64,000 bases of DNA, taken from assembly GCF_000264455.2 (NCBI RefSeq), contig NC_017956.1, forward strand, positions 727,501 through 791,500, written 5' to 3'. The position numbers and the translations under genes were made by a program. The notes beneath the pieces were generated by a model. The model searched no databases. It saw nothing but the letters and a program-made list of their open reading frames with translations, and was not told the origin of the DNA. The DNA is from Tistrella mobilis KA081020-065 (GTDB lineage Bacteria > Pseudomonadota > Alphaproteobacteria > Tistrellales > Tistrellaceae). Shown one piece after another: positions 16,096 to 62,660 of this stretch; within the stretch, counting starts at the first letter, position 1, and each line of letters begins with the position of its first letter.

Positions 16096-16229
16096 GATCG
16101 GCGGATCCGGGTGGCGTTGGAGGGGCTGCAGCGGGGCTGCCGGTGCAGCTCCGTTCTTTCAAATCCCGTGCCAACCGTCGGGAGAGGCGGTTGCAGAGCT
16201 GCTGCTCAATATCGAGGCACGAAATCTTC

Positions 16230-16258
16230 TTGCCTCATTCGCGGGCAGGCTCTATATG
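16230..16258 (+). promoter_or_regulatory. Sigma-70 promoter of sRNA copy 1
   Basis: TTGCCT (16230-16235), exactly 17 bases, TATATG (16253-16258). Predicted transcription start near 16265. Confidence 0.75.
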
Positions 16259-16264
16259 TTGCAG

Positions 16265-16368
16265 CGCGGCAGGTGAACGCTCAGGCGTTCGCGGCCGCTG
16301 CCCAGATCCTTGGGCGTTTCCTCCCTAGACTTAGGGCCGTGTCAGTCTGCTGGCGCGGCCTTTTTTTT
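16265..16368 (+). ncRNA. mmgR/αr8-like trans-acting sRNA, tandem copy 1
   Basis: First of three related intergenic transcripts in 16096-17002, a 907-base stretch without protein genes. It has a 5' hairpin (GAACGC/GCGTTC, 16275-16290), the conserved single-stranded core GCGTTTCCTCCCTAGACTT containing the anti-Shine-Dalgarno-like TTTCCTCCCT, and a terminator hairpin (11-bp stem, 16335-16360) followed by eight Ts. The decamer UUUCCUCCCU is what I associate with the mmgR (αr8, Rfam suhB) family that limits polyhydroxybutyrate storage in Sinorhizobium. AbcR/αr15 is the main alternative. Such RNAs act by pairing with ribosome-binding sites, usually with Hfq. RNA status is near certain; family identity is likely. 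Confidence 0.8.
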
Positions 16369-16521
16369 GCGCCGGACGTCTGACGCGTATCAGGTCGGAA
16401 GATGTTCGTGCTGCACCTGCACAGATGCCCGGTTGGCATGCAGGGCATGCGGCACCGGCATAACCCCCCGGAATTCCTGGACCTCCCCGGCGTTTTTTGT
16501 CCATTCCACCCGAGAAGGCCC

Positions 16522-16550
16522 TTGACCGTTTGTGCGCCGCAACGTATCTT
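16522..16550 (+). promoter_or_regulatory. Sigma-70 promoter of sRNA copy 2
   Basis: TTGACC (16522-16527), 17 bases, TATCTT (16545-16550). Predicted transcription start near 16557. Confidence 0.75.
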
Positions 16551-16556
16551 CATGCC

Positions 16557-16654
16557 TGTAACGGGCGCTTGGCGGCGCCGCTGTTGCAGCCCAGTTTTTG
16601 GGCGTTTCCTCCCTAGACTTTGGGCCGTACCGATTGCTGGTACGGCCTTTTTTT
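16557..16654 (+). ncRNA. mmgR/αr8-like trans-acting sRNA, tandem copy 2
   Basis: Second copy, about 98 nucleotides. It has a 5' hairpin (GGCGC/GCGCC, 16564-16579) whose sequence differs from copies 1 and 3, the same core GCGTTTCCTCCCTAGACTT, and a terminator whose 9-bp stem GGCCGTACC/GGTACGGCC is followed by nine Ts. The sequence between copies is unrelated, so only the RNA unit and its promoter are conserved. Confidence 0.82.
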
Positions 16655-16748
16655 TGTCTCGATGGTGCGTCGCGAAGGGCCGGCGGGTCTGTGATTTCGC
16701 AAATGCGAAGGCCCGTTTCGCGCGTGTGAAACCGATTACAATTCCCTC

Positions 16749-16777
16749 TTGACCGCTGCTGCGTCGCAGCGTATATA
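16749..16777 (+). promoter_or_regulatory. Sigma-70 promoter of sRNA copy 3
   Basis: TTGACC (16749-16754), 17 bases, TATATA (16772-16777): the strongest of the three promoters. Predicted start near 16784. Confidence 0.78.
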
Positions 16778-16783
16778 TTGCAG

Positions 16784-16884
16784 TGCGTCATAAGACGCTT
16801 CGCGTCTGGTGATGCTGCCCATCTTCTTGGGCGTTTCCTCCCTAGACTTGGGCCGTATCAGATTGCTGGTACGGCCTTTTTTTT
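16784..16884 (+). ncRNA. mmgR/αr8-like trans-acting sRNA, tandem copy 3
   Basis: Third copy, about 100 nucleotides. It has a perfect 5' hairpin (AGACGC-TTC-GCGTCT, 16793-16807), the shared core GCGTTTCCTCCCTAGACTT, and a terminator with an 11-bp stem containing one G-U pair, followed by eight Ts. Each copy has its own promoter, so dosage or differential expression of three near-equivalent regulators is expected. Confidence 0.82.
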
Positions 16885-16948
16885 GTCCGGACCTCTGGCT
16901 GGGGCGAGGTGGTCAGACTTGTGTTGCACTTGCGAAATGTGCCTATGC

Positions 16949-18686: not shown

Positions 18687-19643
18687 TCAGCCTCGTCGTT
18701 CCACGCCGAGGGCGGCGAGCAGGGCGCTGTCGCGACCCAATGTCTCGATCAGCAGGGTGAGGTCGGCGGCGACCCGCGCCAACTCCGGCAGCGGCTCCAC
18801 CACGCTCTCATCCATATAGAGGGCGCGGTTGATCTCGACCTGCAGGGCGTGCACGCCCGTGACCGGGCGGCCGTAATGTTCGGTCACATGGCCGCCGGCA
18901 TAGGGCCGGTTGCGGGCGACGTTATAGCCCATCCCCTCCAGCACCTGCTGGGCGGCATCGATCACCCGGGGGGCGCAGGCGGCGCCGAAACGGTCGCCCA
19001 GCACGAAATCCACCCGCCGGTCGCCCGGATCGTGATCCATCGGCCCGCCCACCGAAGGCATGGAGTGGCAATCGACCAGCAGCACGCCACCGAACCGGCT
19101 GCGCACCTCTTCGATGGTCGCCTTCAGCGCCGCATGATAGGGGAAGTAGTAGCGGGCGATGCGCAGCTCCGCCTCAGCCCAGAACAGCTTGCGACCATAG
19201 ATCTCCAGGCCGTTGGTTACGACGCGCGCGATGGTGCCGAGCCCTCCCATCACCCGCCGGGACGTGGCGTTGACGAAAGACGGTACCGCATCGGCAAACA
19301 TCTGCGGGTCGATTTCCCAGGGCTCGCGGTTGACGTCGACATAGGCCCTGGGGAAGCGCGCGCGGATCAGCGGCGCCCCCAGCGCCGGGGCGGCGGCCCA
19401 CAGCCGGTCGACGAACGCGTCTTCGGAATTGCGCAGCGTCAGCGGATCGAGCTTCGACGAGGCCTGAAAGCCTGCGGGATAGCAGTTCCCGGAATGGGGC
19501 GAGGCGAAGACGAAGGGCAGCCGGAGCTCGGCCGGGCGCAGCACCTCGACCGCCGGATCGACCCAGTCGTCGAACCCGGTCCCGGTCGTCGCTGCCCCCG
19601 CCATCTCCAGGCGGTCTTCCGTATCGAAGCCCAAATCGGCCAT
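18687..19643 (-). CDS. N-formylglutamate amidohydrolase
   Basis: A zinc-type hydrolase of the FGase family (PF05013), which releases formate from N-formyl-L-glutamate in the five-step histidine degradation route or acts on related formyl or acyl amino acids. The 318-residue protein has the family segments FVFASPHSGNCYPAGF (about 44-59), LIRARFPRAYVDVNREPWEI, VLLVDCHSMPS and the C-terminal GVHALQVEINRALYMDE. The ATG at 19643 follows a GGGGGA site. No other hut genes are adjacent, so the pathway link is uncertain. Confidence 0.88.
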   Translation of the reverse strand: MADLGFDTEDRLEMAGAATTGTGFDDWVDPAVEVLRPAELRLPFVFASPHSGNCYPAGFQASSKLDPLTLRNSEDAFVDRLWAAAPALGAPLIRARFPRAYVDVNREPWEIDPQMFADAVPSFVNATSRRVMGGLGTIARVVTNGLEIYGRKLFWAEAELRIARYYFPYHAALKATIEEVRSRFGGVLLVDCHSMPSVGGPMDHDPGDRRVDFVLGDRFGAACAPRVIDAAQQVLEGMGYNVARNRPYAGGHVTEHYGRPVTGVHALQVEINRALYMDESVVEPLPELARVAADLTLLIETLGRDSALLAALGVERRG

Positions 19644-19961
19644 CGGTCGGTCTTGTCCCCCGATCTGCCGCCGATGCCCGCTGCCCGGTCCCATCCGGGT
19701 GCCGCATCGATCCAGGCCCACATGAATACGGCATTCCGCCCCCCATGTCATGCCATTCGGTCCCCGCGACCGGCTCGCGCGGCACAGGGCGGTCATGTCC
19801 GCGTCGCATGGGCAACACCTTGCGGCGCCGGCGCATTCCCGGGGCGGCGACACGGAACCGTCACGGGGCTGCATTTCCGGGCTTGCACGGCCTTTCGGGC
19901 TGCGTTATATGAACGCCCACACCGACACCGGGTGCAGACAAGCCCCATGCGGTGCGGACAT
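19644..19961. other. 318-bp intergenic region before tRNA-Val
   Basis: No protein gene recognised. It contains the upstream region of the leftward amidohydrolase and, at its right end, the tRNA promoter at 19883-19911. Nothing else is apparent. Confidence 0.6.
19883..19911 (+). promoter_or_regulatory. Promoter of tRNA-Val
   Basis: TTGCAC (19883-19888), 17 bases, TATATG (19906-19911), about 50 bases upstream of the mature tRNA. Confidence 0.65.
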
Positions 19962-62596: not shown

Positions 62597-62660
62597 CTGT
62601 TTCCTCCCTCATTTTTTTAAGCCGTCGCGTCAGATGGTTATCCGCGCGTCGGATCAGAAA

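Follow-up and report, generated by a model that had tools for sequence, protein, structure and literature searches.

Three tandem αr8 small RNA genes with putative PhaR boxes in their promoters in Tistrella mobilis

Judged from their sequence, three tandem units in Tistrella mobilis are genuine αr8 small RNA genes, and the array that they form, which spans positions 16229-16885 of the 64-kb window (the whole stretch of DNA that was analyzed) with all units on the + strand, is real and beyond chance. We consider it likely, taking the parts jointly, that this tripled αr8 locus is repressed by PhaR and induced by PHB, and that the core of its RNAs blocks the translation of carbon-use mRNAs. Transcription, PhaR binding, the targets and the physiology are what we infer within this best explanation. 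The αr8 family, its core, its multiple copies and its control by PhaR in Sinorhizobium meliloti are already published.

Layout and family identity of the array

The promoters and the RNAs of the three units (RNA ends as predicted) are located as follows:
16229-16257, + strand, promoter of unit 1, CTTGCC-N17-CTATAT, 11 of 12 bases of the alpha consensus
16264-16369, + strand, RNA of unit 1; RF00519 match 16293-16375, core 16310-16332, terminator stem 16333-16362
16521-16549, + strand, promoter of unit 2, CTTGAC-N17-GTATCT, 10 of 12 bases of the alpha consensus
16556-16655, + strand, RNA of unit 2; RF00519 match 16582-16662, core 16598-16620, terminator stem 16622-16648
16748-16776, + strand, promoter of unit 3, CTTGAC-N17-GTATAT, 11 of 12 bases of the alpha consensus
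16783-16885, + strand, RNA of unit 3; RF00519 match 16810-16891, core 16827-16849, terminator stem 16850-16877

The covariance search showed that the window contains three matches to RF00519 (suhB/mmgR, the αr8 family; threshold 41 bits) and no others. All three are full length (model positions 1-77), with scores of 60.9 bits for unit 1 and 66.5 bits for each of units 2 and 3 (E-values 4.3e-10 to 1.6e-11). The original prediction, which was made from the letters of the sequence, had described three tandem mmgR/αr8-like units, and both the number and the identity hold, given the three matches within 16229-16891, the αr8 core, the terminators and the neighboring gene described below. The units have in common an identical core of 23 bases, TTGGGCGTTTCCTCCCTAGACTT, which contains the identical 19-base core of that prediction, and the αr8 10-mer core UUUCCUCCCU is present in all three, between a weak hairpin and the Rho-independent terminator. 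In one set of predicted folds the 10-mer is unpaired, while in alternative folds it is partly paired in units 1 and 2. The expected 5′ hairpin is predicted in every unit, with sequences that differ among the three. Each unit is closed by a G+C-rich hairpin followed by a T run, in agreement with the T-rich terminators foreseen, and these three terminators have the most base pairs among the 6 terminator-like sites found, where shuffled sequences give 1.9. Spacers 1 and 2, which had been called unrelated, are indeed unlike each other.

The promoters were scored against the α-proteobacterial consensus CTTGAC-N17-CTATAT (12 bases) on both strands of the window, and the three unit promoters are the only sites on either strand that score at least 10 of 12. 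With scores of 11, 10 and 11 and spacers of 17 bases they match the predicted sigma-70-type promoters, and a strict scan of the E. coli type (TTGACA/TATAAT) detects only that of unit 2. Upstream of the unit 3 promoter, and of no other, lies an imperfect dyad, TGAAACCGATTACA (16727-16740), which is kept in three genomes of the genus and which we take to resemble a LacI-type operator.

The covariance model library should include a model named αr15. The 17 matches with E-values up to 5 included no family so named, and the proposed αr15 check thus gave no support; the αr15/AbcR identity was rejected on this ground, and AbcR belongs to another family than the array. The NmsRb and Betaproteobacteria_toxic_sRNA models reach 20.5-23.3 bits in the array, where their thresholds are 50-52, and they also represent other families. 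A fourth RF00519 match in the genome (C4:125847; L036:4810-4925) scored 40.6 bits, below the threshold of 41, and 41.2 bits with the SorX model, below its threshold of 46.6. It was left out because it is sub-threshold, contains several CUCCC hairpins and is without the αr8 core. This sRNA-like element has a terminator, and a nearly identical copy is found in another genome of the genus (G001).

Members of the αr8 family typically act in trans as Hfq-bound repressors of mRNAs. The closest known system is MmgR of S. meliloti (αr8, RF00519), which resembles the array in the covariance model, the anti-Shine-Dalgarno core and the terminator, and in a promoter with a PhaR/AniA box (PMC12542648, PMC7143759, PMC8401924). 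The MmgR gene is present in a single copy and its RNA is 77 nt long, whereas the array has three adjacent copies with RNAs predicted to be about 100 nt long, each with an additional 5′ hairpin. The SisA-D RNAs of Caulobacter crescentus, which are αr8 siblings sponged by CrfA, are similar to the array in having several αr8 copies per genome, an identical 10-nt core and one copy adjoining an N-formylglutamate amidohydrolase (FGase) gene (PMC12559287). They differ in being dispersed and, as reported, in having no common promoter motif (PMC12559287), while the copies of the array are adjacent and have recurring PhaR-type boxes. Sibling anti-Shine-Dalgarno RNAs are also known from AbcR1/AbcR2 (αr15), which are encoded in tandem as the array units are (PMC7143759), and from NmsRa/b of Neisseria.

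Conservation, genomic neighborhood and rarity

The three units are in unchanged order in all three genus genomes examined, which are that of the window (G000) and the other two found (G001 and G096). When G000 is compared with G001, the identity is 96, 99 and 97% for the RNA segments of units 1, 2 and 3, and 90, 97 and 97% for their promoters, while it is 63% upstream of unit 1, 66% in spacer 2 and 70% downstream of the array. The RNA differences between these two genomes are mostly in unpaired positions, and those at 16298 and 16869 preserve a pair; a single deletion (16595) falls in a T run, which one predicted fold shows as paired and another as a loop. Spacer 1 (16385-16505), at 83%, is above both spacer 2 (66%) and the downstream flank (70%). 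It has long conserved blocks, its 3′ end, TTTTTTGTCC, is like the unit terminators, and it possibly holds another element or a decayed unit.

None of 88 copies taken from other genomes is as similar to the units as these are to one another, which suggests that the units probably arose by tandem duplication within their own lineage before the three genomes diverged. The neighborhood of the array includes the following gene:
18687-19874, − strand, FGase gene (PF05013, E=1.7e-78), convergent with the array
This gene lies 1.8 kb past unit 3, with a biopterin-dependent hydroxylase gene and a GNAT gene in between, so that the array has the neighbor typical of αr8. Of 28 αr8 loci in other families, 25 have an FGase gene no more than 1.5 kb away (in L028 at just 25% identity), and the same linkage has been reported in the Caulobacter study (PMC12559287). 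On the evidence of this linkage, the array is the ancestral αr8 locus, tripled in tandem.

Exact 16-base cores 80-500 nt apart were found in three of 385 class genomes, all of them of the genus itself. The search with the 10-base core returned seven of the 385, which were the three of the genus, G205, G166, G056 and G179. The G205 locus is a true pair of two near-identical αr8 copies; G166, G056 and G179 were rejected as tandem αr8, since by eye their printed sequence is without αr8 features. No αr8 triple was found outside the genus in the 385 class genomes by this core pattern search, which would miss pairs with an altered core or other spacing. Dispersed αr8 copies are present in many genomes, with ten and seven RF00519 matches in G347 and G051 (family f51), respectively, among the matches listed. 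In one locus (L029 of G053, about 1500-1540), an αr8 copy contains two instances of the core TTTCCTCCCT at a distance of 22 nt, apparently within one RNA. Adjacent αr8 copies have already been mentioned in print (PMC12559287). Hence, tandem αr8 genes are already known, while the triple arrangement is new and rare.

Putative PhaR boxes in αr8 promoters

The PhaR protein of S. meliloti is a PHB-sensing repressor that binds YGCRNYGCR, and its site in the mmgR promoter was proven by gel shift (PMC12542648). A conserved dyadic motif between the −35 and −10 elements of the mmgR promoter was previously known (PMC8401924), and for this reason a box in the promoter spacer is not a new discovery. Four perfect matches to this PhaR-regulon motif are distributed over the three promoters of the array (slots are given as the position of the box center, with counting from the base that directly follows the −10 element):
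16260-16268, + strand, putative PhaR box of unit 1, TGCAGCGCG, start-site slot (+6)
16533-16541, + strand, putative PhaR box of unit 2, TGCGCCGCA, spacer slot (−13)
16760-16768, + strand, putative PhaR box of unit 3, TGCGTCGCA, spacer slot (−13)
16779-16787, + strand, second putative PhaR box of unit 3, TGCAGTGCG, start-site slot (+6)

The box positions are identical in G000, G096 and G001, and both substitutions within boxes between orthologs (2 of 2) fall on the free position of the motif. The motif is loose, with 57 occurrences in 64 kb, and for 0.9% of anchors placed at random in the window a box falls in the slots. The genome itself has one PhaR (PF07879) gene and three phasin genes; boxes are present upstream of the PhaR gene and of two phasin genes, and none was found upstream of the third.

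The boxes recur in other αr8 loci. The comparison set consisted of the best αr8 match from each of 60 other families among the matches listed, with the genus itself excluded and families with weaker matches mostly left out. In 43 of the 60 families the 75 nt upstream contained a box, while 500 shuffles gave 5.4 (sd 2.2, maximum 13) and control stretches had a box in 15 of 60 and 10 of 60 cases. The dyad TGC-N3-GCA was the commonest of 576 palindromic dyads, being present at 29 of 60 loci. Promoters in this set were placed by the best consensus match (L149 was kept although it has no CTCCC), and the slots were counted without three loci that have a weak promoter (L125, L130 and L132). In the remaining 57 promoters, a box occupied the two fixed slots in 33 (15 at the start site only, 7 in the spacer only and 11 in both), as compared to 0 of 57 in a control stretch that lies further upstream and was read with the same offsets; the slots were empty in 24. 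Among 15 further αr8 copies, mostly from multi-copy genomes, 11 had a box within 75 nt.

The distribution of PhaR itself was also compared. Of 165 αr8 genomes, 154 have a PF07879 match, as do 77 of 220 other genomes, but ancestry and genome size are confounders of this co-occurrence; the 165 were defined by an E cut, and 163 genomes exceed the RF00519 threshold among the matches listed. In eleven αr8 genomes no PhaR was found, and the promoters of nine were read (G125 and G158 being outside this number). A box was present in four (G067, G350, G291, G205) and absent from five (G026, G121, G114, G258, G305). The box rate of 43/58 with PhaR against 4/9 where none was found is a weak difference, and some of the genomes are incomplete. 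In the open-access literature searched, no paper was found on a class-wide link between PhaR and αr8 or on a small RNA of Tistrella.

The original prediction had suggested dosage control or differential use of the core, and either may contribute. The identical core, the conservation of the copies as distinct units in three genomes and the putative PhaR boxes in differing slots suggest that the units share a single signal, possibly at different thresholds. A different explanation would be that the units are independent siblings with the same targets, each promoter being governed, as has been suggested for SisA-D, by a regulator of its own, so that the boxes matter little. The report that sisA-D have no shared upstream motif and are each expressed distinctly (PMC12559287) is consistent with this explanation, as is the dyad-like sequence conserved in the three genomes upstream of the unit 3 promoter alone. 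We regard it as rather unlikely, since the same box occupies the same two slots across all units and the three genomes, and the chance of slot occupancy is 0.9% per promoter. Alternatively, the copies could be redundant and serve only to provide more RNA, with no control by PhaR and with the start-site box being part of the 5′ hairpin. Such a pure dosage effect could account for the identical core and for the overlap of the start-site box with the predicted 5′ end of the RNA; it is quite improbable, because the spacer-slot box, which would not be transcribed from its own promoter, is nonetheless conserved and recurs in 18 of the 57 promoters from other families, and because the changes within boxes between orthologs fall on the free position in 2 of 2 cases. 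That the units are non-functional, either decayed or chance copies, is hardly credible considering the covariance E-values of 4.3e-10 to 1.6e-11 and the presence of promoters, terminators and conservation.

Predicted targets and proposed role

The complement of the 10-base core, AGGGAGGAAA, occurs 12 times in G000, three of these being the sRNA genes themselves. Of the other nine sites, eight are located 2-9 nt ahead of a start codon that opens a long frame; the ninth is not. One site in the window is the following:
62600-62609, − strand, Shine-Dalgarno sequence AGGGAGGAAA of a TRAP (DctP) binding-protein gene, with the start codon 3 nt on; predicted target
The eight start sites include those of three DctP genes and of genes for an E1 dehydrogenase, an FGGY kinase, an FMN oxidoreductase and an enoyl-CoA hydratase, and the eighth belongs to a putative ABC sugar-binding protein gene. 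Seven of the eight recur in both G096 and G001. At the best site, upstream of DctP at C1:618974, the core complement extends over 14 nt in G096 and G001, and 13 of these 14 match in G000. The 14-nt core complement (up to 2 mismatches) was not enriched in G000, where it had 17 sites and the reversed pattern 27. A control word, AGGAGGAAA, had 13 sites, of which three are plausibly placed ahead of the start of a frame longer than 50 aa, and DctP accounts for one of these three, this being a small control; the duplex energies overlap. The genome has 43 DctP matches, and one of them (C3:488505-489297) is split by TGA. Targeting specific to DctP is not claimed (3 of 8 core-complementary start sites versus 1 of 3 in the control), because a strong Shine-Dalgarno sequence resembles AGGGAGGAAA and the control also yields DctP. 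On the other hand, SisA represses through the same core, and it acts on TonB-dependent receptors (PMC12559287), which makes genes of uptake and catabolism plausible targets by analogy.

In the mechanism that we favor, each unit would be transcribed from its own housekeeping-sigma promoter into an RNA of about 100 nt, and the PHB-sensing repressor PhaR (AniA) would repress every one of these promoters. Repression would act through the start-site box in unit 1 and the promoter-spacer box in unit 2, while unit 3 would use both. PHB granules would titrate PhaR, and the three RNAs would then accumulate together. Their single-stranded UUUCCUCCCU core may pair with purine-rich Shine-Dalgarno sites and block translation, with the blocked mRNAs probably being those of carbon-uptake and catabolic genes, so that the RNAs would serve as a signal that stores are full. 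The copy number would add dosage, while the differing operator layouts could grade the response.

Two further readings, which we hold jointly as a tentative and on balance doubtful possibility, are that the array is a graded reserve gauge and that, across Alphaproteobacteria, the PhaR circuit has its RNA arm in the αr8 RNAs. If the former is true, one polymer-sensing repressor would act on three operator layouts, and the output would step up as PHB accumulates. If the latter is true, αr8 RNAs would shut off carbon uptake at full reserves, from operators whose two fixed slots are separated by about 19-20 bp, which would explain the PhaR-activated transporters of S. meliloti despite the rarity of boxes among PhaR-activated genes.

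Why a bacterium has several near-identical regulatory RNAs is described as an open question in the Caulobacter αr8 paper (PMC12559287). The array offers a clean natural test, as it combines one targeting core with three promoters, one candidate repressor and three operator layouts. What most deserves further attention is the recurrence of the operator slots. If these slots are real PhaR operators, αr8 RNAs would generally report carbon storage, and this would unite MmgR, with its control of PHB, and SisA, with its role in feast and famine, in one circuit.
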